This document shows positions 15,064 to 28,072 of a DNA stretch of 28,778 bases, piece by piece (position 1 is the stretch's first letter; each line of letters starts with the position of its first letter). This stretch comes from a virus. The stretch lies in the IMG/VR virus record IMGVR_UViG_3300042695_000329, positions 1 through 28,778 of that record. One strand, 5' to 3'. The notes under the pieces were generated by a model. The model saw only the letters and a program-made list of their open reading frames with translations. It was not told the origin of the DNA and searched no databases. Position numbers and translations under genes: made by a program.

Positions 15064-15261
15064 ATGGACGCCGAAACTAGACTGCAGAGACTTAAATCTA
15101 TAAAAACTCAACATGAAAAGCAACATGAGATTGTTGAAGCTCTTGAAGCCGAAAACGCACCAGAAGAAGCAATCATTAAAGCTAAAAAACTCAAGTTGAG
15201 TATGAAAGATGAGATCGTTGCTATAGAAACTAGTCTTAAATCAGAAGGTGTAAAATGCTGA
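15064..15261 (+). CDS. YdcH/DUF465-like small coiled-coil protein (65 aa)
   Basis: A 65-residue helical protein with the pattern of the YdcH/DUF465 family: [20 protein letters not shown] near the N-terminus and [18 protein letters not shown] near the C-terminus, a short antiparallel helical hairpin. The function of the family is unknown, although members occur in T4-like phages. The ribosome-binding site is AAGGAGATATAA before the ATG, and the 3' end overlaps guaC by seven bases, which suggests coupling. It has no catalytic motif. Confidence 0.65.
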
Positions 15262-16367
15262 TTGAAAATGATGTTAAACTTGATTATAAAGATGTATTGA
15301 TTCGCCCAAAGCGTAGTACGCTATCAAGCAGATCTGAAGTAGAGCTTAAACGAGAATTTAGTTTTCGTAATGCAGAAAACGAGTTTTCAGGTATTCCTAT
15401 CATGGCTGCTAACATGGATGGGGTAGGTACATTCGAGATGGCAGATGCTCTTGCAAAGCAAAGAGTGTTTACTTGTCTTGTTAAAACGTATTCAGAAACA
15501 GAACTAGTTTCGTTCTTTGATAACGGCAATGAAGACTACACTCGTACTAACTATGTTGCTATGAGCATTGGAATTGGTCATGAAGACGAAATGAAATTCC
15601 GTAATGTATACGAGCAAGCTGGTGCTTATCTCAAATACGTATGTATTGATGTCGCGAATGGATATACAGAACGTTTCGTCGAGTTCATCAAACACTTTCG
15701 TATGAACTATCCGTATATCGTAATCATTGCAGGTAACGTTGTGACTGCAGATCAAACACAGGAGCTTATTCTAAATGGAGCAGACATTGTCAAAGTTGGT
15801 ATCGGCCCTGGTTCTGTATGCACGACTCGAATCCAAACCGGCGTGGGTTATCCGCAGCTATCTGCTGTTATTGAGTGTGCAGATGCTGCTCATGGTCTTG
15901 GTGGCCATATCATTGCTGATGGCGGGTGTAGCACTCCTGGTGATGTAGCAAAAGCTTTTGCTGCTGGTGCTGACTTTGTAATGCTTGGTGGTATGCTTGC
16001 AGGTCATGATCAAGGTGGTGGAGAGATAATTAACAGAGCTTTCAAAACCGGCGAGATCCATTATGATAATGGTGATGAAGTCATCGAAACAAAAAAGTTT
16101 GTTAAGTTCTATGGTATGAGTTCAAAAACCGCAAACGATAAACACTTCAATGGTCTTAAGGATTATCGTTCTTCTGAAGGTCGAACTGTGTTGACAAAAT
16201 ACAAAGGTGATGTTAATATTACTATACAAGATATTCTTGGTGGTGTTCGTTCTACCTGCACTTATGTCGGCGCAAGTACTTTAAAACAACTATCTAAGTG
16301 TGCAACATTTATTCGTTGCACTGAGACACATAACCGAGTTTTTGAAAATTCTACTATTGGTAATTAA
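15255..16367 (+). CDS. guaC: GMP reductase (GuaC-like)
   Basis: An IMPDH/GMPR-family TIM-barrel enzyme that reduces GMP to IMP and ammonia with NADPH. The N-terminus ([12 protein letters not shown], 12-23), [10 protein letters not shown] (51-60), IDVANGYTE (131-139), the flap with catalytic Cys189 in [11 protein letters not shown] (183-192), [23 protein letters not shown] and YGMSS closely follow bacterial GuaC. There are no CBS domains, and a YRSSEGRTV segment carries the reductase-type glutamate, so GMP reductase is favoured over IMP dehydrogenase. The length of 370 exceeds the usual 347 because of a small insertion near residues 270-285. It returns guanine nucleotides to the adenine branch and sits beside a MazG-like gene. 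Confidence 0.92.
16191..16219 (+). promoter_or_regulatory. Internal sigma70-type promoter in guaC
   Basis: TTGACA, a 17-base spacer and TAATAT near the 3' end of guaC, placed to transcribe the MazG-like gene. The hexamers and the spacing match the other early promoters here. Confidence 0.5.
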
Positions 16368-19255: not shown

Positions 19256-19603
19256 ATGTCTTTTACCTACACTCCCACCAATCGTTTTTTCGTCACTAAC
19301 CCCTACAATCCCGAACTCGATCGGGGCCGCACTCCTTTTACCAAACAACAAACCATCGACTTCATCAACTCCATCGATCCCTCCGAACATAACCACTACG
19401 GATATATTCTTATCGCTGAATATACTATCGACGGAAAATACCAATACACTGTCCACTCCTTCGCCCATGACATTTGGACTCCTACCGGTAAAATCAAACG
19501 CAACTTCGTCAAATATCTCGATCTGACACCTTATATTGAAAACTACATTCCTACCAACCTCTCTGAAACTACATACGAAAACTGGAATTCACAACATGCT
19601 TGA
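19256..19603 (+). CDS. Hypothetical protein (115 aa)
   Basis: Begins MSFTYTPTNRFFVTNPYNPE and is rich in aromatic residues and proline, with a likely beta-rich core (YGYILIAEYTIDGKYQYTV, around 48-66). C-ending codons are unusually common, as in the gene before it. A strong promoter and an AAAGGAG site precede the ATG. Its last eight bases overlap the ATG of the nuclease-like gene. I do not recognise a family. It is probably an early protein made at high level. Confidence 0.65.
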   Translation: MSFTYTPTNRFFVTNPYNPELDRGRTPFTKQQTIDFINSIDPSEHNHYGYILIAEYTIDGKYQYTVHSFAHDIWTPTGKIKRNFVKYLDLTPYIENYIPTNLSETTYENWNSQHA

Positions 19604-20402
19604 AACTCTTATCGAAACACAATATTTCGAATTGGAACTTCCCTTAGAAGCAGGGGAAGTTTCTAACATTTTTCACTATCATCGAAATCAAGAAAAATAT
19701 TGGAAAATGTCCAATAAGCCTTTGCGAGCCCTTCGTGAAGGCAAAATTGTTGCAGACTTTTCAAAGTGGTCTGATATAGCAAAAGACTCAAAAGTAAAGT
19801 ATGTCATTGACAAAAACTCTGATAAGTACACTTGGTTTCCAACGTTTATTATGAGCAAGAAAAACTTGTTCAAGCTTTATGACGCTAGATTTGCAAAAAC
19901 AGATCAAGGAATGATCGCTGTTATTCAAATTAACGAAGAGCCTTCAGCTATTCAAATCGTAACACCTGAAACTCGTGACGATACTACAGCTGTTTCTATG
20001 GGTGAAATTGGCGAGGAAGCCGTGGCATCACACTTCAATGCTCAGCGTTCAGAAGACTGGTATGATAGTGAAAAAGACGGTACAATTGGCGATCTTACAT
20101 ATGAAGTAAAGACGTTCCAACTTAACCATAGATATGAGGGATTTTTGATTGAGCAATCACAATGGCAGAAACTCGATGGAGTTGATATGCTTTTCTTTGT
20201 TCGTGTACCAGACAAAGAAGAAGATTTAGCAAAAGCTTATCTGATGATTAATCATAAGACCTGTTATCATCATGAATACGTAAAAGATACGAAACTTCGC
20301 TGTTATCCGTTGACAAATTGCCTTTATCAGTTTACAATTGACAAAGATAAGTCGAGTAAAATTCTTGCTCTATCAAAAGAAATTTCAACATGGAGAAAAT
20401 AA
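19596..20402 (+). CDS. PD-(D/E)XK nuclease-like protein (268 aa)
   Basis: The ATG at 19596 (MLETLIETQYF) overlaps the upstream stop. An earlier ATG inside the preceding gene is less likely. Residues 136-175 carry a plausible PD-(D/E)XK active site: EIGEEAVASHF with Glu140/141, then GTIGDLTYEVKTF with Asp166 and Glu170-Val-Lys172, followed by a strand and a helix (EQSQWQKLDGVDMLFFVRV). This is the layout of many restriction-type and phage nucleases. The N-terminal 130 residues are unfamiliar and may bind the target. It begins the block that leads into the DNA-modification genes. The target (host DNA or unmodified DNA) is unknown. Confidence 0.6.
   Translation: MLETLIETQYFELELPLEAGEVSNIFHYHRNQEKYWKMSNKPLRALREGKIVADFSKWSDIAKDSKVKYVIDKNSDKYTWFPTFIMSKKNLFKLYDARFAKTDQGMIAVIQINEEPSAIQIVTPETRDDTTAVSMGEIGEEAVASHFNAQRSEDWYDSEKDGTIGDLTYEVKTFQLNHRYEGFLIEQSQWQKLDGVDMLFFVRVPDKEEDLAKAYLMINHKTCYHHEYVKDTKLRCYPLTNCLYQFTIDKDKSSKILALSKEISTWRK
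20310..20338 (+). promoter_or_regulatory. Internal sigma70-type promoter before the modification genes
   Basis: TTGACA (20310-20315), a 17-base spacer and TACAAT (20333-20338), embedded in the nuclease-like gene about 65 bases before the DUF1599-like start. It may give the hydroxymethylase block separate transcription. Confidence 0.5.
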
Positions 20403-20782
20403 TGAGCAATCCTGAAAGTGTAAACGTTCTTCAAGAATGTATTGATTTGCAAACCCGCAAGTCTCGTGATTATCAAAATCCAAACTCGTCTGTAAAACAA
20501 GCAGACTATTATCCTAATGGTGTTCAAACGATTTATGATGTGATGCATGGTAAGATGCTTCGCATGAAGTCTGTTATGGAAGCGATGCAAAGCAAAGGTT
20601 ATGATCCGAACTTTGAAAGTCTCGAAGACAGCGCTAAAGATCTAATCAATTACGCAAGCTTCTTTGTTTCATATTGCCGTAATGGTATTCAAGGCCAAGC
20701 ACCAGGCCGTGATATCTTTAATAAAGAAATTAAAATTGAAGATCGTCCTGCTCTTGGTGATGCCAATGCAAACAGTAAGTGA
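20402..20782 (+). CDS. DUF1599 / Nmad1-like protein (126 aa)
   Basis: The ATG at 20402 (MSNPESVNVLQECIDLQ) overlaps the previous TAA. The helical sequence with KSRDYQNPNSSVKQADYY (25-42), HGKMLRMKSVMEAM and ESLEDSAKDLINYASFFVSY resembles the DUF1599 group, which has been grouped with DNA base-modification genes (Nmad1) by gene context. Its biochemical role is not established. It overlaps the dCMP hydroxymethylase gene by 17 bases, so joint action in nucleotide modification is plausible. The family match is moderate, not certain. Confidence 0.5.
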   Translation: MSNPESVNVLQECIDLQTRKSRDYQNPNSSVKQADYYPNGVQTIYDVMHGKMLRMKSVMEAMQSKGYDPNFESLEDSAKDLINYASFFVSYCRNGIQGQAPGRDIFNKEIKIEDRPALGDANANSK

Positions 20783-21458
20783 TATTCGTAAGCACTTTAT
20801 TGAAGAATTGAAAGCCGAACGTTTTACTACAGATAAAACCGGCCAAAAAACTATCGAGATCATCGGTGCAAGCTTCCTTGCCGATGAGTCTTCAATCTTT
20901 GGTACTCCTAATAAAGAGTACATCGATAAAGAAATCTCTTGGTACGAGTCTATGTCGACCAACATCTATGATATTAACAAAGAGTCGGGTGCAGATGCCC
21001 CGGCTGCTTGGCGTTATGCAGCAGATAAACATGGTAACATCAACTCGAATTATGGTCATCTGATCTTTAGTCCTAAGTATCATTATCAATTCATTCATGC
21101 GTTTGATGAACTATGGGCAAACCCAGACAGTCGTCGAGCTCAGATGGTGTATAATCGTCCTGAAATCTGGGTAGAATTCAACGAAGGTGGTAAGTCAGAT
21201 TTCATCTGTACTAATGCTCAAACCTTTTACATTCGTGATGGCAAACTTCATATGGTGTCACAAATGCGTTCAAATGATGTCGTGTATGGTTACAAGAATG
21301 ATTATGCTTGGGCTCGATATCTCATGGACAAGTTCATTCATCAATGGAACGAGATGGCTGCTATCTATGCAAAACATGGTGAAATCTCAAGAGGTGATTT
21401 GATCTGGCAGGTAATGAACTTGCACGTATACGAACGTCATTTCGACTTGGTGAAATAA
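20766..21458 (+). CDS. 42: dCMP hydroxymethylase (T4 gp42-like)
   Basis: A thymidylate-synthase-fold enzyme that adds a hydroxymethyl group from methylene-tetrahydrofolate to C5 of dCMP. The sequence follows T4 gp42: DKTGQKTIEIIGASF (23-37), NSNYG (93-97), NPDSRRAQMVYNRP (119-132), catalytic Cys148 in FICTN, and RSNDVVYGYKNDYAW (168-182). Asp179 occupies the place of the Asn that thymidylate synthases use for dUMP, which indicates dCMP specificity. Both key residues have the same numbers as in T4. The start at 20766 has a GGTG site. The C-terminus is about 16 residues shorter than T4's. It should supply 5-hydroxymethylcytosine for phage DNA. Confidence 0.88.
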   Translation: MQTVSDIRKHFIEELKAERFTTDKTGQKTIEIIGASFLADESSIFGTPNKEYIDKEISWYESMSTNIYDINKESGADAPAAWRYAADKHGNINSNYGHLIFSPKYHYQFIHAFDELWANPDSRRAQMVYNRPEIWVEFNEGGKSDFICTNAQTFYIRDGKLHMVSQMRSNDVVYGYKNDYAWARYLMDKFIHQWNEMAAIYAKHGEISRGDLIWQVMNLHVYERHFDLVK

Positions 21459-21459
21459 C

Positions 21460-21672
21460 ATGGATGAAATAGATTTTAATTCAGTAAAACTTACTTCAGA
21501 CCATAATCTTTTTGGAAAGTATACGATCATCACTCCACCAAAAATGGCTTGGAAATGCGAACTTCATTCTAGTACATATTTTCATGTTTCAGAAGGTAAA
21601 CAACCAAACGCGTTTCATCGCTTTATGCAAAGATTGTTCTTTGGTGTTAAGTGGTCAAGAGTAGATGACTGA
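21460..21672 (+). CDS. Hypothetical protein (70 aa)
   Basis: The ATG is one base after the gene 42 stop and the 3' end overlaps the deaminase gene by eight bases. The product begins MDEIDFNSVKLTSDHNLFG and has aromatic, basic C-terminal residues (FHRFMQRLFFGVKWSR). No family is recognised. Because it lies between two dCMP-metabolism enzymes it may assist them, but nothing in the sequence shows how. Confidence 0.6.
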   Translation: MDEIDFNSVKLTSDHNLFGKYTIITPPKMAWKCELHSSTYFHVSEGKQPNAFHRFMQRLFFGVKWSRVDD

Positions 21673-22198
21673 TCAAGAACGTTATCATGAATACATACTT
21701 CGTCGTACAAAGGAGTCAGATGAATTGAATAATCTAAAAGAATACCCTTATCCCAAGTGGGATTTCCGTTTTCTCAAGCTTGCAAAAGAAATTTCTACTT
21801 GGAGCAAAGACCCTTCAAGCAAGATTGGCGCAGTCATTGTAAATGATGAGCGTCGTATTCTTGCTACTGGATATAACGGGTTTCCTCGTGGCATCGCAGA
21901 CACGCATGAGCGTCTGAACGATCGTGAAGAAAAGTATCCTCGTATTATCCATGCTGAGATGAATGCTCTTATGAATGCCTTGTATAGTGGTGTATCTGTT
22001 AAAGGTGCTACATTGTACGTCTATGGTCTTCCAGTTTGTTCTGATTGCACTAAATCTGTTATTCAATCTGGTATTAAACGTATCGTTCTTTCTCCTCCAG
22101 AATTGGCTCCAGAAAAGTGGCGTGAAGCTTGGGAAAAGATTTCTGAACCTATGTTTAGAGAAGCTCGAGTAGATATCAGCAAGATCATTTTTGATTAA
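21665..22198 (+). CDS. cd: dCMP deaminase
   Basis: A zinc-dependent cytidine-deaminase-fold enzyme, 177 residues, that converts dCMP to dUMP and so feeds dTMP synthesis. The zinc site is HAEMNAL (His and catalytic Glu) with PVCSDC (two cysteines), and SSKIGAVIVNDERRIL matches the family core. The N-terminal 35 residues are polar and extra. It overlaps the 70-aa gene and is followed two bases after its stop by the UDG-like gene. Together with dCMP hydroxymethylase it shares the dCMP pool, so the phage can set the balance between thymidine and modified cytosine. Confidence 0.92.
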   Translation: MTDQERYHEYILRRTKESDELNNLKEYPYPKWDFRFLKLAKEISTWSKDPSSKIGAVIVNDERRILATGYNGFPRGIADTHERLNDREEKYPRIIHAEMNALMNALYSGVSVKGATLYVYGLPVCSDCTKSVIQSGIKRIVLSPPELAPEKWREAWEKISEPMFREARVDISKIIFD

Positions 22199-22200
22199 TC

Positions 22201-22566
22201 ATGCAAGATGTTATCGTCGTAGGGATTAATCCCTCGAGTGGCAAACAAAATAAAACGAGTCCATCCATCAAGAAATTAAATTGTTGGATGGACTCGTTTG
22301 GTATAGATTACTATTCTTTTACGAATGTGATCCATCAAACTGGTGCGTACAAACAATCTTTTGTTGACAAAAATGCACTTTTATGTTACATTAAAGGTTA
22401 TAAAAAGGTGATAGCGCTCGGACCGTTCGTGTCAAAAACGCTAAATAGTATCGGTGTTGACCATTACACGATGCCTCATCCTTCTCCTTTAAATCGACAG
22501 CTTAACGATAAAGAATATGAAGCGATGAAACTTGAAGAATGCAAAAAATTTATGGAGTCGGTATGA
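22201..22566 (+). CDS. Minimal uracil-DNA-glycosylase-fold protein (121 aa)
   Basis: Two motifs of the UDG superfamily are present in order: GINPSSGK (8-15), like motif 1 of the Mug group, and MPHPSPLNRQ (91-100), like motif 2 of UDG. The strand KKVIALGPFVSKTL (68-81) lies where the fold expects it. At 121 residues it is much smaller than typical enzymes (about 170-230), so it is a minimal or divergent member. Its substrate is unknown. It could remove uracil arising from dCMP deamination or act on another base. It overlaps the glycosyltransferase gene by ATGA and contains a promoter. Confidence 0.6.
   Translation: MQDVIVVGINPSSGKQNKTSPSIKKLNCWMDSFGIDYYSFTNVIHQTGAYKQSFVDKNALLCYIKGYKKVIALGPFVSKTLNSIGVDHYTMPHPSPLNRQLNDKEYEAMKLEECKKFMESV
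22364..22392 (+). promoter_or_regulatory. Internal sigma70-type promoter
   Basis: TTGACA (22364-22369), a 17-base spacer and TACATT (22387-22392), about 170 bases before the glycosyltransferase start. It may give the glycosyltransferase, mutase and methyltransferase their own transcript. Confidence 0.5.
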
Positions 22567-23660
22567 AAAAAATTCTTATTACTGGTATGAACAAACTCCA
22601 ATGCTCTAAAGATTTCTTTCTAAATCAAGAGCTTAAGGTTGTTCCATCACATTATTCTCTTATTCGTTGCCTCGAGGATATGGGGTATGAGGTAGACCAG
22701 AGGCCCGTCAGCCTTGGAGAGGACCTCTCTGGGTACGATGAAGTAATCGTTTATATCCACAGCATCCAAGCATTCTGTCAGTATCTGTGGGCAGGGTTAT
22801 ATGCTGTTTATGCGCGTCCTAACTGTATTATCGCCTTTGATGATTGGCAATTCAATCAGATCTATGGTGCTATTCAGACCTATCAAGAGAAGATGGAAGA
22901 AGACGATCCGGGTATTTTCCGTGATTATCTCTTTGATCTTTGGCAAGGTACTGAAGATAAAGAAACAGTCATGAAGTACAAGGACATTTATATCGAAGCT
23001 TGCAAGATTATTACAAGCAAGAGCAATCGTCTTCTCGTAAGTGCATTTTCTGGTGGTGATCTTGGTCTTCTGAATCTTGGATGGAATCCAGAAAACGTTT
23101 ATCAGTACAATCCAAATCCTTATCATTTGAATCGTCGTGCTGATAACTCATATGGCACCGGAGAAGTTAGTCTTGCAAGCTTCTTTGATGACGAGATTGA
23201 AAAAGAATTTAAATGGAATTTCGCGTCTCTTGTTCAAGAGAAAACGCGTAAATGGCTCAAAGCGCAGCAACCTGAAAAGTGGAAGTGGGAAATTATTTAC
23301 TATGGCGCTAAGCGTGGTAAGTATAAGTCGGAGCGTAAAACCGAACCCGAAATGGTAAAGGTCTTCGAGAAGCAGTGGGGATGCCTGATGCCAGGATATT
23401 TCCATGCCGGATCGGGATGGTGGCGAGCACGCCCGCTGCAGGTTGCTGACGCTGGGTCTATCATTATTGGTGACAAACCAGAAATGATGGTGTACTATAA
23501 AGATGAGGCTCTTGCTGGTCTCAGAGTTCAAGATGTAGAAGCTATGGATCTGTCTCAGCTTAAAGCAACAGCAAAAGCTCAACGTGATGCCATCTATGAT
23601 ATTCATCCTCTAGATAAAAAAGTACAACAAGAAGAATTGAAGAGGATCCTCGAAGCATGA
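22563..23660 (+). CDS. GT-B-like glycosyltransferase, candidate DNA sugar transferase
   Basis: The ATG at 22563 (MKKILITGMN) has a GGAG site and overlaps the previous stop. The 365-residue protein begins with a Rossmann-type strand, and PSHYSLIRCLEDMGYEV with VIVYIHSIQAF resembles the N-terminal half of phage GT-B enzymes. The C-terminal half has EIIYYGAKRGKYKSER and a basic motif followed by RPLQVADAGSIIIGD and YYKDE, as in nucleotide-sugar-binding domains of T4 beta-glucosyltransferase-type proteins. No close match to the T4 alpha or beta enzyme is evident. Its overlap with the UDP-galactopyranose mutase gene suggests that it uses that sugar donor, which is an inference. Confidence 0.6.
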   Translation: MKKILITGMNKLQCSKDFFLNQELKVVPSHYSLIRCLEDMGYEVDQRPVSLGEDLSGYDEVIVYIHSIQAFCQYLWAGLYAVYARPNCIIAFDDWQFNQIYGAIQTYQEKMEEDDPGIFRDYLFDLWQGTEDKETVMKYKDIYIEACKIITSKSNRLLVSAFSGGDLGLLNLGWNPENVYQYNPNPYHLNRRADNSYGTGEVSLASFFDDEIEKEFKWNFASLVQEKTRKWLKAQQPEKWKWEIIYYGAKRGKYKSERKTEPEMVKVFEKQWGCLMPGYFHAGSGWWRARPLQVADAGSIIIGDKPEMMVYYKDEALAGLRVQDVEAMDLSQLKATAKAQRDAIYDIHPLDKKVQQEELKRILEA

Positions 23661-24658
23661 ATATTTTAGTTGTTGGAGCTGGTTTATCTGGTGTAACGAT
23701 TGCTCGTGAGCTTGCAGAAGCAGGTCATATTGTAGATGTGATTGATAAACGCGATCACGTTGCCGGTAATGCTTATGAATACATAAACGAGTATGGTATT
23801 CGAGTACACAAATATGGCCCTCATCTGTTCCATACAAGCAATAAAACTGTATTCGATTGGCTGAGTAAATTTACTGAATGGGCAGAACACCGTCATAAGG
23901 TAAAAGCTCAGCTTCAGGATGGCCGTTACGTAACTCTACCAGTTAACAAAGAAACTAAAGAAATTGTTGGTGAAGAAAACGTTCTTGATATTTTCTTTAG
24001 ACCCTACACAAAGAAAATGTGGGGTGTAGAACTCGATGAACTCAATCCAGAGGTTATTAATAGAGTTCCTATCCGTGATGATATGAATGAGTATTACTTT
24101 CCTAATGATGAGTATCAAGCTGTTCCTCTTCATAGTTATACAGACATGGTAAATAACATTCTATCGCATATCAACATTACTGTGAAGTTAAACACTTCTT
24201 ATGATAAAGGTATGAACGCGCATTACGATCACGTATTTAACTCGATGCCAATCGATGAATACTTTGATTTTAAATATGGTCATCTTCCTTATCGCTCAAT
24301 TAAATTCGAGACAGTAACTCTGCCAATCTCAAGTGCTCTACCAGCTCCGACAGTAAACTTTACTCATGACGGGCCAAACACTCGAGTTACTGAATGGAAA
24401 AAAATTGCTGCGCATGGTTCGAATAAATATTACACAACGCTTACTTTTGAAGAGCCTTGCGATTATAAAGATAATAACATGGAACGTTATTATCCAGTCA
24501 AAGATCGTGACGGTAAAAATCGTGAGCTTTATGAAAAATATAAAAGTGAACAACCAGAGCACATGACCTTTATCGGCAGATGCGGACTCTACGCATATTT
24601 GGATATGCATCAAGCCGTAAGTTCTGCTCTGGCAACAGCGAGAAAGTTTTTATCATGA
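23657..24658 (+). CDS. glf: UDP-galactopyranose mutase
   Basis: A flavoenzyme that converts UDP-galactopyranose to UDP-galactofuranose. Some relatives also act on UDP-arabinopyranose. The FAD-binding GAGLSG (7-12) and DKRDHVAGNAYEY, the HKYGPHLFHTSN block, RPYTKKMWG, RVPIRDDMNEYYFPNDEYQ, YYPVKDRDGKN and FIGRCGLYAYLDMHQ with its substrate-binding Arg all follow bacterial Glf. The length of 333 is slightly below the usual 370-390. It overlaps the glycosyltransferase upstream and the methyltransferase downstream, both by ATGA. It gives a furanose donor for sugar transfer to DNA or another phage or cell component. Confidence 0.93.
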   Translation: MNILVVGAGLSGVTIARELAEAGHIVDVIDKRDHVAGNAYEYINEYGIRVHKYGPHLFHTSNKTVFDWLSKFTEWAEHRHKVKAQLQDGRYVTLPVNKETKEIVGEENVLDIFFRPYTKKMWGVELDELNPEVINRVPIRDDMNEYYFPNDEYQAVPLHSYTDMVNNILSHINITVKLNTSYDKGMNAHYDHVFNSMPIDEYFDFKYGHLPYRSIKFETVTLPISSALPAPTVNFTHDGPNTRVTEWKKIAAHGSNKYYTTLTFEEPCDYKDNNMERYYPVKDRDGKNRELYEKYKSEQPEHMTFIGRCGLYAYLDMHQAVSSALATARKFLS

Positions 24659-25863
24659 GCGAATTTACCCATGCAAGTATTGTGCCTTTGATTGGTGGAG
24701 AAACTATCGGATCACACAGAGCGTTCGGTGCACCACCAATTCATTTTATGTCATATGAAGCTTTTGCTGCTAATGACAAGCACATCTTAAATTATTACGA
24801 AAACAAAATCCCCTACTATGTACTCGATAAAGGAATGTCTCCTCCAGTAAATGAGAAGGCAGATGTTGTTGCATCTGTTTGCCCTTGTGCCGGTCTGTCC
24901 ATGATGTCGCATGGTTATGGAGACGACAACGAGAATAATAAATGGATGATAGAAACCACAAAGTACATTCTCGGCGATTATAAACCAAAGGTTCTTTGGG
25001 GTGAGAATGCTCCAGGTTTTGCCGGTAAGATCGGTAAAAACATTCGTGAAGAACTCAAACAGATTGGCAAAGATAACGGATACACTATGTCTGTTTATCG
25101 TACTAAATCTCTTCTTCACGGTGTTCCACAGGTTCGTGAACGTTCTTTCTATTTCTTTTGGAAAGGTACTCAAGTTCCTCTGTTCAATTACTATAATCGT
25201 GAGTACACGCCGATCGAAGATCTGATTCGTAATGTAAAATCGAACTATCAGATGGAACCGATTAACCCCAAGAAGCCATCCGAGAATCCATATTACAAGT
25301 ACATCCTTGAAGAAATTCATGGTGGTCGTACTCATAAAGAACATCATGAGGCTATTCCACTTACATCTGCTCGTGGTGTATGCGCTTTTAGTTATATTGA
25401 AAGTATGGGACATAACTATAAGCAAGTTGGTGAATGGATGGCTAAAAACGGCTTTGAGAAAGAAGTCGAAAAGTGTGATTACAAATACAAGAAACTCGAG
25501 GCTGGAAATAGCATCATGCGTCGAGGTGTAATTGTACCAAAAGATCGCATTGGTGCTTTCGTAGGCCACTATCCAGTGATGCTTACACACCCCGATGAAG
25601 ACCGTTTCATTACATACCGAGAAGCAATGTCAATCATGGGCCTTCCAGAAGACTTTGAGTTGGTCGATGCAAGCCCACGTAATGCTAACCATATATGCCA
25701 GAATGTACCAGTACAGACGGCCCAGGACATGGCTACAGAGGTTCTAGCGACACTCCGAGGCCAAAGAAATTGGGTTGACACCGATTACATTTTGCAGTAT
25801 AATACTACACAGAAGCTCGAATACGATGAGCAAAAGAATACGCTAGAGGAATTTTTTGTATGA
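24655..25863 (+). CDS. C5 cytosine DNA methyltransferase-like protein
   Basis: The ATG at 24655 (MSEFTHASIVPLIGG) overlaps the mutase stop. Motif I is present in altered form as LIGGETIGSHRAFG (12-25). The catalytic motif IV is VCPCAGLS with Cys78 after Pro77, motif VI is ENAPG (117-121), motif VIII is QVRERSFYFF, and the C-terminal motifs include YREAMSIMGLPEDFEL and QNVPVQTAQDMATEVL. All are consistent with a Dcm-type enzyme of 402 residues. The target-recognition region in the middle is unfamiliar. A C5 methylase beside a dCMP hydroxymethylase is unusual, because C5 would already be substituted. The product could act before full substitution, on host DNA, or differently. Confidence 0.8.
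   Translation: MSEFTHASIVPLIGGETIGSHRAFGAPPIHFMSYEAFAANDKHILNYYENKIPYYVLDKGMSPPVNEKADVVASVCPCAGLSMMSHGYGDDNENNKWMIETTKYILGDYKPKVLWGENAPGFAGKIGKNIREELKQIGKDNGYTMSVYRTKSLLHGVPQVRERSFYFFWKGTQVPLFNYYNREYTPIEDLIRNVKSNYQMEPINPKKPSENPYYKYILEEIHGGRTHKEHHEAIPLTSARGVCAFSYIESMGHNYKQVGEWMAKNGFEKEVEKCDYKYKKLEAGNSIMRRGVIVPKDRIGAFVGHYPVMLTHPDEDRFITYREAMSIMGLPEDFELVDASPRNANHICQNVPVQTAQDMATEVLATLRGQRNWVDTDYILQYNTTQKLEYDEQKNTLEEFFV
25775..25803 (+). promoter_or_regulatory. Internal sigma70-type promoter
   Basis: TTGACA (25775-25780), a 17-base spacer and TATAAT (25798-25803), a perfect consensus, in the last codons of the methyltransferase gene and about 60 bases before dexA. It should transcribe dexA and the GT-A gene separately. 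Confidence 0.7.
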
Positions 25864-26495
25864 GAACAGATTTTATTTTAGACTTTGAAACAATCGGGCA
25901 ATGCTCAAGGCTTGCTCCTGCTATCGATTGTTCTTATACAACATTTGTTTGGGAAAGATTTCTTGAACAACCTTATTCTTTTCAAGAGCTTGTAGACACG
26001 ATTCAAAAATCAAAATTGTCTATTAAAGATCAAGTTACTAATTATGACTTCTCTTATAAAGAAGAAGATCTGAACTGGTGGATGCAACAAGCGCCTGAAG
26101 TAAAGAAGAACATCAAGCCTCTTCCTACCGATCTTACCGTTCCTCAGTTTATTGAGACTATGATTTCTTATCTTCGCAAATCAGAAAAGATCTCTTACTG
26201 GTGGAGTCGTTCGAACGGGTTTGATCCTGTAATTTTGGATCATCTTTCGATGTCTGTTCATAAAGATAAGTTTCTAAACGAATACATTCCTTTTTGGAGA
26301 GTTCGTGATACTCGTACTTACATCGACGCATCATTCGATTTTAGTACAAAAAATGGATTTGTTCCAATCGCTGATGAAGAATATTGGAATAATAACTTTA
26401 AAGCTCATGATAGTGTACACGACGTAGCAGCTGATATTCTACGTCTTCAAACTATTCATAGAGCACAACACGATATGGAGCAAGTTGAGAGATGA
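25860..26495 (+). CDS. dexA: DexA-like 3'-5' exonuclease
   Basis: A DnaQ-fold exonuclease of 211 residues. The metal-binding residues are DFETIG (8-13), Asp in SNGFDPVIL, and HDSVHDVAADILRL near the C-terminus, with His and Asp in the ExoX-type order. WWMQQAPEVKKNIKP and RVRDTRTYIDA also match T4 exonuclease A. It may degrade host DNA or process ends. The ATG overlaps the methyltransferase stop, and the gene's own promoter lies upstream. The length is close to T4 DexA (227). Confidence 0.85.
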   Translation: MRTDFILDFETIGQCSRLAPAIDCSYTTFVWERFLEQPYSFQELVDTIQKSKLSIKDQVTNYDFSYKEEDLNWWMQQAPEVKKNIKPLPTDLTVPQFIETMISYLRKSEKISYWWSRSNGFDPVILDHLSMSVHKDKFLNEYIPFWRVRDTRTYIDASFDFSTKNGFVPIADEEYWNNNFKAHDSVHDVAADILRLQTIHRAQHDMEQVER

Positions 26496-27388
26496 AAATT
26501 GAAGTATCAATTCAAGATCTACAGAAATACAAAATTTTTGTAGGTACACCAATGTATGGCGGTAACTGCACCGGCATCTATACTAAGTCATGCACAGATT
26601 TAGCAATGATAACTGCAGCAAACGGTATCAATCTTCGCTTTTATTATCTATTTAATGAGAGTCTTATTCAAAGAGCTCGTAATTATATCGTAGATGAATT
26701 CCTGCGTTCTGACGCCACTCATCTTATGTTTATCGATGCTGATATTGGTTTTAATGCTAAAGATGTTTTGAGTCTTCTTGCCGTGTATCATACAGATCCA
26801 GCAAAATACAACGTACTAACTGGACCTTATCCAAAGAAAACTATTGCATGGGAAAAGGTAAAGAAAGCTGCAGATGCCGGCCGCGGAGATGAAAACCCGT
26901 TTGATCTTGAGCAGTACAGTGCTGACTTTGTTTTCAACCCTGTTCATAAGCTTGCAAGTTTTAATCTTTCAGAGCCACTTGAAATTGGTGAAGGTGGTAC
27001 CGGTTTCATGTTGATTCCTCGTGAGACCTTTGAAAGATACAAAGAAGCATATCCTGAACTATCGTATAAACCAGATCATGCCCGCACAGAGAATTTCGAC
27101 GGTTCTCGTGACATCATGGCTTATTTTGATTGCATAATTGATCCTGAAACAAAAAGATATTTGTCGGAAGATTATTTCTTCTGTAAAAAATCTCGTCAAG
27201 CTGGAATGCAAATCTTTATGTGCCCTTGGATGCAACTCAATCATGTTGGTTCTTATATCTTCAAGGGAAACATGGGCGCAATTGGTTCACTCGGTGTGTC
27301 TGCTACAGCAGATAAAACGAGTAATAAAAAGAACTATGAGAATAACCAGTTGACAAATAAGAAAAAACGTAGTAATATTAACAGATAA
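26492..27388 (+). CDS. GT-A glycosyltransferase (298 aa)
   Basis: The N-terminal half has the phage GT-A pattern: KIFVGTPMYGG (14-24), ESLIQRARNYIVDEFL (56-71) and a DxD motif in MFIDADIGF (79-87, Asp82/Asp84), which binds the metal and nucleotide sugar. ACG-like acceptor features cannot be read. EIGEGGTGFMLIPRE and SEDYFFCKKSRQAG carry the expected second-half acidic residues. The C-terminus after about 275 is lysine/asparagine-rich. A second glycosyltransferase near the mutase suggests a two-sugar chain or separate targets. Similar proteins are common in T4-like phages with unknown acceptors. It overlaps dexA by ATGA. Confidence 0.75.
   Translation: MKIEVSIQDLQKYKIFVGTPMYGGNCTGIYTKSCTDLAMITAANGINLRFYYLFNESLIQRARNYIVDEFLRSDATHLMFIDADIGFNAKDVLSLLAVYHTDPAKYNVLTGPYPKKTIAWEKVKKAADAGRGDENPFDLEQYSADFVFNPVHKLASFNLSEPLEIGEGGTGFMLIPRETFERYKEAYPELSYKPDHARTENFDGSRDIMAYFDCIIDPETKRYLSEDYFFCKKSRQAGMQIFMCPWMQLNHVGSYIFKGNMGAIGSLGVSATADKTSNKKNYENNQLTNKKKRSNINR
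27350..27378 (+). promoter_or_regulatory. Sigma70-type promoter for gene 45
   Basis: TTGACA (27350-27355), a 17-base spacer and TAATAT (27373-27378), inside the tail of the GT-A gene. It lies about 32 bases before the clamp ATG, whose GGAG site is well placed. Confidence 0.75.
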
Positions 27389-27409: not shown

Positions 27410-28072
27410 ATGAAATTTTCTGAGCGCACTCTCACTATTCTCAAAAGCTTTTCAAGCATTAACAAATCTATCTTGATGAAAGAAGGTAATGTTCTTAAGA
27501 CTGTTACCCCTGAAAAAACTCTTATTGCCATCGCAGCGATTCCAGATCAGATCCCAGCTCAAGCTTGCATCTATGATTTGTCTCGCTTTTTGTCAATTTT
27601 GAGCCTCTACAAAGACCCCGATGTCGAGTTTCATGATAAATACTTTATGATCAAGGACGGCAAACAGCGCACAAAATATGTGTATGCCGATATCTCTATG
27701 ATCCATGCAGCCCCTGAAAAAGAAATCAAAATTCCTTCTTCAGACGTTGTAGTAAGTGTATCTTGGAATGATATGCAGTCTGTTATTAAAGCAGCTGGTG
27801 TTCTCCAATTTACTGAAGTTGCGTTCGTTGGTGAAGCCGGTAAGATCTATCTGAAAGCCATGAACAGCGCACAAGAAAATTCTGATGACTACGGCGTTGA
27901 AATCGGCGAGACATCAGATGAATTTAAGATTATTATCAAAACAGATAATCTTAAGCTCTTGCCTCAGGACTATCAAGTTACTCTTTGCGCAAAGGGTATC
28001 TCTGAGTTCAAGGGCAGCGACGTAACTTATTACGTCGGTATTGAAACTAAGTCGACTTATAAAAAAGGATAA
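27410..28072 (+). CDS. 45: Sliding clamp gp45
   Basis: A 220-residue trimeric clamp subunit that tethers gp43 to DNA and activates late transcription with gp55. The length and layout match T4 gp45 (228): MKFSERTLTILKSFSSIN at the start, YDLSRFLSILSLYKDPDVEF (54-73), a central YADISMIHAAPEKEI, and the C-terminal LKLLPQDYQVTLCAKGISEFKG. It precedes the gene 44 region, as in T4. An AGGAG site lies before the ATG. Confidence 0.93.
   Translation: MKFSERTLTILKSFSSINKSILMKEGNVLKTVTPEKTLIAIAAIPDQIPAQACIYDLSRFLSILSLYKDPDVEFHDKYFMIKDGKQRTKYVYADISMIHAAPEKEIKIPSSDVVVSVSWNDMQSVIKAAGVLQFTEVAFVGEAGKIYLKAMNSAQENSDDYGVEIGETSDEFKIIIKTDNLKLLPQDYQVTLCAKGISEFKGSDVTYYVGIETKSTYKKG

Follow-up and report, generated by a model that had tools for sequence, protein, structure and literature searches.

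The closest described systems for placing sugars on the cytosines of phage DNA are the glucosyl-hydroxymethylcytosine pathway of T4 (gp42, alpha-gt, and beta-gt) and the arabinose pathway of RB69 and other Mosigvirus phages. For relatives of RB69, arabinosyl-hydroxymethylcytosine was originally reported (PMC6024577). According to a later report (PMC13390438), the base of RB69-type phages is 5-hydroxycytosine, with the arabinose directly on C5, and the premise of an RB69-like arabinosyl-hydroxymethylcytosine, from which an earlier reading of the DNA studied here (the original prediction) had started, is therefore outdated. Here, we analyze a gene block on a T4-like phage fragment of 28.8 kb that comes from a collection of viral metagenomes (IMG/VR record IMGVR_UViG_3300042695_000329), the whole of which we refer to as the window. 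Judged from sequence comparisons and predicted structures, this block is probably a cytosine hypermodification locus whose galactofuranose cassette, a UDP-galactopyranose mutase (UGM) paired with a glycosyltransferase of the GT-B fold, would give galactofuranosyl-hydroxymethylcytosine. A literature search for galactofuranose on phage DNA returned nothing relevant; the studies of Lee et al. (2025) and Mahler et al. (2025) lie outside this check, and prior publication is possible.

Organization of the Gene Block

Three genes of the window are central to this proposal:

20766..21458, + strand: dCMP hydroxymethylase of the T4 gp42 type (PF00303, E 1.7e-12)
22563..23660, + strand: GT-B glycosyltransferase, predicted DNA hydroxymethylcytosine furanosyltransferase (phrog_14998, E 4.9e-31)
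23657..24658, + strand: UGM (Glf), predicted to make UDP-galactofuranose (PF03275, E 3.9e-51)

They form part of a series on the + strand that encodes, in order, a small hydrolase-like protein, the hydroxymethylase, a small protein, dCMP deaminase, a uracil-DNA glycosylase (UDG)-like protein, GT-B, UGM, a cytosine-C5 methyltransferase (C5-MTase)-like protein, the exonuclease DexA, a glycosyltransferase of the GT-A fold, the sliding clamp, and the clamp loader. All eight genes that the original prediction had named are present in one block, on this strand and in the claimed order. Its left border needs correction: the hydroxymethylase gene starts at position 20766 (or 20760) and not at 20402, and positions 20390-20782 are occupied by the separate small hydrolase-like gene. 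At five junctions in a row (UDG-like/GT-B/UGM/C5-MTase-like/DexA/GT-A), the stop and start codons overlap in the four bases ATGA, and the six genes therefore look translationally coupled. These overlaps, together with a gene order that the synteny check found conserved across dozens of viral contigs, set the block beyond chance.

The Hydroxymethylase and the Expected Base

The hydroxymethylase of the window shares 47.6% identity with T4 gp42 and as much as 50% with gp42 of a Klebsiella phage, and its top match among PDB entries is the T4 deoxycytidylate hydroxymethylase (1b49, E 2.7e-62). A residue-by-residue alignment with T4 gp42 bears out the original prediction in that both Cys148 and Asp179 (T4 numbering) are kept, and CTN and KND are conserved. 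The segment around Asp179 reads MRSND..GYKND in the window and is of the same type in T4, Erwinia phage FBB1, and Aeromonas phage 25, as opposed to MRSQN..MQLDF in RB69 and Morganella phage Rgz1. The window protein is thus not a thymidylate synthase relative of the RB69 (5-hydroxy-dCMP synthase) type. Since its motif is that of the T4 enzyme and unlike that of the RB69 5-hydroxycytosine type, the base of this phage should be 5-hydroxymethylcytosine.

The GT-B Protein and Its Pairing with UGM

The GT-B protein (365 residues) has a single profile match, phrog_14998, a family of unknown function. It did not match the sequence profile of the T4 beta-glucosyltransferase (BGT) family PF09198, nor was a match to this family present in the GT-B/UGM records searched; in window-type records, none of the profiles for BGT and the T4 alpha-glucosyltransferase (AGT) matched, and the alignments of GT-B and GT-A, used as profiles against PDB sequences, gave no meaningful match. 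Its AlphaFold model, calculated from an alignment of 53 viral sequences, has a mean pLDDT of 92.6, and Foldseek ranked T4 BGT first (1qkj, E 7.8e-7). In the VIA comparison, the model was aligned to T4 BGT over 304 residues with Z 17.5, an rmsd of 3.7, and 13% identity, to T4 AGT with Z 15.4, and to glycogen synthase and others with Z of at most 16.4; other GT-B families come within about 1-2 Z units of BGT, and the fold by itself does not single out BGT. The guess of a GT-B-like protein, originally made from sequence, is backed by this model: according to the predicted structure, the protein is a GT-B enzyme, and the solved structures closest to it, with 13% identity, are those of DNA glucosyltransferases. 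The motifs DDWQ and GSGWWRxR are kept in most members of the family, which has hardly any representatives in cellular genomes (three matches, all in metagenome-assembled genomes).

The partner protein passes the Pfam cut-off for the GLF domain (PF03275) with 174.1 bits against 26.3. Across 22 phage sequences, the residues aligned to W160, R174, N270, R280, Y314, R343, Y349, and D351 of the Klebsiella pneumoniae enzyme, which we take to be the substrate and flavin residues of UGM, are invariant.

Of 80 viral loci found by GT-B, 70 have a UGM gene directly next to it and two have one no more than 1.1 kb away; the eight that lack UGM all fall in one clade. The hydroxymethylase is encoded on the same stretch in 59 of the 80. 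Conversely, GT-B is adjacent in 66 of the 80 viral loci found by UGM. The pair is known in both gene orders and occurs in 19 Aeromonas and two Stenotrophomonas records as well as in an actinobacterial phage. Erwinia FBB1 and Aeromonas 25, in which the order is the opposite one, combine gp42, UGM, and GT-B; a search of these two phages for the AGT and BGT families gave no match, while the T4 positive control matched both. In one further locus (L114:5746-8539), GT-B and UGM are directly followed by a different protein that is more like thymidylate synthase, 27% identical to the hydroxymethylase of the window and with the Asp179 position kept.

Exchange of Sugar Cassettes at One Slot

To compare what sister phages carry at the position of the GT-B-UGM pair, loci were fetched with the GT-A and C5-MTase-like proteins; since several anchors drew them, the numbers of cassette types are not frequencies. 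The loci share a frame of hydroxymethylase, deaminase, X, C5-MTase-like protein, DexA, GT-A, and clamp, in which X differs among sister phages and is the GT-B-UGM pair in the window type. Homologues of the T4 DNA alpha-glucosyltransferase take its place in L186, L319, L299, and L334 (PF11440, E 1e-69 to 1e-76), and sequence similarity points to them in more loci. In L141 and L158, the slot encodes an RB69-type nucleotidyltransferase together with two proteins that are phosphatase-like and transferase-like, respectively. In L132 (6162-8787), the slot holds an NAD epimerase, a UDP-glucose dehydrogenase, and a TET-associated glycosyltransferase (TAGT, PF20691), a candidate set for a uronic-acid (or derived) DNA sugar. 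A candidate for an inositol-linked cytosine modification is present in L135:4251-8294, L156:4287-8094, and L193:4734-8524, where an inositol-phosphate-synthase-like protein is accompanied by a phosphatase-like protein, a 5-hmdU-DNA-kinase helical-domain protein, and a transferase-like protein without a Pfam match; for the L156 gene, the only one tested, inositol-3-phosphate synthase is the NCBI family that matches best (E 6e-59, below the cut-off). Finally, GT-B alone fills the slot in L309, L311, and L312.

Because sister phages keep a T4 DNA glucosyltransferase homologue at this position, we regard it as a DNA-sugar slot, and the swap of cassettes is the strongest evidence that the GT-B-UGM pair would act on DNA. 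With less assurance than for the locus in the window, we lean toward a broader proposal in which galactofuranosyl-hydroxymethylcytosine would arise in phage DNA via the UGM and BGT-like cassette and the locus would be a general exchange site at which sister phages swap the group that the same hydroxymethylcytosine receives, be it glucose or an arabinose-type, uronic-acid-type, or inositol-linked one.

Proposed Pathway, Donor Sugar, and Alternatives

With activities, acceptor, and donor as predicted here, the pathway would begin with the synthesis of 5-hydroxymethyl-dCMP by the T4 gp42-type enzyme, as its family and residues support, and this nucleotide would, by analogy with T4, be built into the phage DNA. 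The FAD-dependent UGM, judged by its residues and the GalE linkage described below, would convert UDP-galactopyranose to UDP-galactofuranose, and the BGT-like GT-B, to which fold, pairing, and slot all point, would move galactofuranose to the hydroxymethyl group of cytosine in DNA, replacing the glucose of T4.

An NAD-dependent epimerase adjoins the GT-B-UGM pair in nine window-type loci. GalE is the best family for the epimerases of all six such loci tested (E 2e-62 to 2e-67, below the strict cut-off) and for the three tested among eight epimerases of a second group. GalE, UGM, and the transferase would complete a route from UDP-glucose via UDP-galactofuranose to the acceptor. Neither a gene of the UDP-xylose/arabinose pathway nor RB69-type arabinose genes were seen beside the GT-B-UGM pair. 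The claim of a furanose on cytosine, which had been left between galactofuranose and arabinofuranose, is thus upheld insofar as the genes predict a pathway that modifies cytosine with a sugar from a donor made by UGM; of the two sugars, galactofuranose is favored because a GalE-like epimerase, and with it a supply of UDP-galactose, is linked to the pair in relatives. The same pathway with another furanose, in which UGM acts on UDP-L-arabinopyranose (or N-acetylgalactosamine or another 4-epimer) to yield arabinofuranosyl-hydroxymethylcytosine or a similar base, is the alternative that fares best. Bacterial UGMs are generally known to tolerate UDP-arabinopyranose in vitro, and arabinose on phage cytosine has been reported for RB69 relatives (PMC6024577, PMC13390438). 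Moreover, in the RB69-type operon of Gualtarvirus, the gene for arabinose-5-phosphate isomerase and that for the nucleotidyltransferase flank a GT-B homologue, so that the GT-B family meets two independent sugar routes; this finding also counts for the main proposal. Yet the linked epimerases match GalE best, and the RB69-type arabinose genes fill the slot in place of GT-B-UGM and not alongside it, which makes another furanose unlikely.

Several observations weigh against the proposed galactofuranose pathway. The UGM of the window scores below the NCBI equivalog cut-off (TIGR00031, 284 versus 303.75 bits) and is about 35 residues shorter than the bacterial enzymes, with a gap between positions 102 and 108. 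Phage C48C1 (L001, complete genome) possesses the GT-B-UGM pair and has no match to the thymidylate synthase superfamily; its modified base, if any, must therefore arise in another way. UGM genes are also present in phage sugar-gene islands that lack GT-B. Lastly, two clades each include eight GT-B loci with no UGM nearby, so that GT-B presumably can use some other donor. Homologues of GT-B without UGM are present in Gordonia phages as well; the group to which the hosts of these phages belong makes galactofuranose for its cell wall.

The loci lacking UGM bear on a further alternative, in which GT-B glucosylates hydroxymethylcytosine from host UDP-glucose as in T4 and UGM serves a capsid or host-surface glycan or another purpose. 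Such a use of UDP-glucose would fit the likeness of GT-B to T4 BGT and the eight loci in which GT-B without UGM lies directly upstream of the C5-MTase-like gene; a separate role of UGM is difficult to reconcile with the tight coupling of the two genes by ATGA overlap and adjacency. Furthermore, the presence of UGM is clade-coherent, with four changes where shuffled labels give 14 on average. The C-terminal motif on the predicted donor side of GT-B, WWRARPLQVAD, reads WWRSRVQQVVD in the UGM-free clade next to the C5-MTase-like gene. Residues that separate UGM-linked from UGM-free proteins are suggestive only, since eight of the 15 UGM-free sequences belong to one clade. We judge glucosylation by GT-B to be slightly less probable still than transfer of another furanose. 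That the pair modifies a surface glycan or a protein rather than DNA is highly improbable: UGM is best known from surface glycans, and some phage UGMs are found in sugar-gene islands without hydroxymethylase, but homologues of the T4 DNA alpha-glucosyltransferase replace the pair in the slot of sister phages, the predicted fold of GT-B is closest to the T4 DNA glucosyltransferases, and most GT-B loci carry the hydroxymethylase on the same stretch.

The island UGMs of L222, L223, L226, and L273 are 66-76% identical to that of the window and lie in islands that combine several sugar and methyltransferase genes but have neither GT-B nor hydroxymethylase, probably reflecting a non-DNA use of phage UGM. 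UGM alone was rejected as a marker of DNA modification, as GT-B is missing from 13 of the 80 UGM loci (a contig end truncates a few of these) and several of the loci belong to sugar-gene islands. The rhizobial T4-like phages Agrobacterium OLIVR5 (L005) and Ochrobactrum ORM_20 (L004) combine UGM with an RB69-type (hydroxycytosine) thymidylate synthase relative and have no GT-B of this family; their DNA possibly contains furanosyl-hydroxycytosine.

Accompanying Genes

The remaining genes of the locus are as follows:

20390..20782, + strand: small hydrolase-like protein, suspected member of the MazG-like superfamily (phrog_18404 "hydrolase", E 7e-14)
21665..22198, + strand: dCMP deaminase (PF00383, E 5.6e-21; phrog_174, E 3.6e-46)
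22201..22566, + strand: UDG-superfamily-like protein (PF03167, E 0.008, below the cut-off; HPSPLN motif)
24655..25863, + strand: C5-MTase-like protein (PF00145, 78.5 bits against a cut-off of 22)
25860..26495, + strand: DexA-family exonuclease (PF16473, E 3.6e-9; phrog_255, E 9.6e-27)
26492..27388, + strand: GT-A-fold glycosyltransferase, clamp-linked (phrog_1574; model pLDDT 85.8)
27410..28072, + strand: sliding clamp gp45, right edge of the locus (similarity to annotated gp45 genes of related records)

The small hydrolase-like gene is present at 45 of the 80 GT-B loci, and its product, for which a Pfam search gave no match, is a possible dNTP pyrophosphatase that would supply dCMP to the hydroxymethylase. 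For the UDG-like protein, encoded at 29 of these loci, the fold proposed by the original prediction agrees with the HPSPLN motif, but the profile match is weak; a repair glycosylase is a possible function.

In the C5-MTase-like protein, the catalytic residues Cys77 (PC motif), ENA, and QxRxR are invariant in 21 sequences, and the S-adenosylmethionine-binding motif I is atypical. Its gene was accompanied by the hydroxymethylase in all 12 such loci of one survey, with or without GT-B-UGM. In a hydroxymethylcytosine phage, C5 of the cytosine would already be substituted. A member of this family (L127:5363-6580) adjoins the RB69-type sugar cluster of Pseudoalteromonas phage XG4.

The predicted structure of the second transferase backs the original assignment to the GT-A fold, with STIV A197 (Z 16.9) and LH3 (Z 16.6) as matches. 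The suggestion that this enzyme extends the sugar is left unsupported, and we rejected it, since GT-A tracks the clamp gene and not the hydroxymethylase: the clamp lies downstream in all 63 loci with enough flanking sequence, and of the 26 loci that extend far enough upstream, 12 encode the hydroxymethylase on the stretch and 14 do not. Nor was a T4-type hydroxymethylase found in the genomes of DLP_6, Cr30, OC, and phiM12, which carry GT-A relatives.

Two further genes of the window were noted. A phage GMP reductase gene (15255-16367) lies downstream of the DNA polymerase gene (NF003470, 523 bits, over the cut-off). The protein encoded at 19593-20402 has no Pfam or PHROG match and contains an E..D..EVK pattern resembling PD-(D/E)XK nucleases; in a number of other loci, relatives are encoded at this position.

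Implications and Comparison with Known Systems

If the proposed pathway holds true, the range of sugars known from DNA widens to include a hexofuranose, and phages would be seen to produce a furanose donor for their DNA themselves. From the genomic rule of gp42 plus the UGM-GT-B pair, the base could be predicted for about twenty sequenced phage records of the Aeromonas type and for Erwinia FBB1. Isolates with this enzyme set exist among the phages of Aeromonas and Erwinia, which makes the prediction testable on material already available. A locus for cassette exchange would make the DNA sugar of a phage readable from its genome, which bears on the escape from restriction enzymes, CRISPR, and type IV enzymes such as BrxU. 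A galactofuranose-DNA transferase and its mutase would also provide a tool to label hydroxymethylcytosine.

With the T4 glucosyl-hydroxymethylcytosine pathway, the window shares the T4-type hydroxymethylase, a BGT-like predicted GT-B fold, and, in sister phages, AGT homologues in the same slot. Unlike T4, it has a UGM of its own (and relatives also a GalE-like epimerase) instead of relying on host UDP-glucose alone, its GT-B lacks a BGT or AGT profile match, and a C5-MTase-like gene is part of the locus. The arabinosyl-5-hydroxycytosine pathway of RB69 and Mosigvirus resembles the window in that the phage supplies an unusual sugar nucleotide, and a GT-B homologue is found in the Gualtarvirus arabinose operons; the RB69 base, however, is reported as 5-hydroxycytosine from a distinct thymidylate synthase relative with another motif, and the block of the window is without an isomerase or NTP-transferase. 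The UGM/galactofuranosyltransferase pathways of bacterial envelopes have in common with the window a UGM with conserved FAD and active-site residues, whereas its partner in the window is not a GlfT-type GT-A enzyme but a phage GT-B that comes closest to DNA glucosyltransferases, and the predicted acceptor is DNA.

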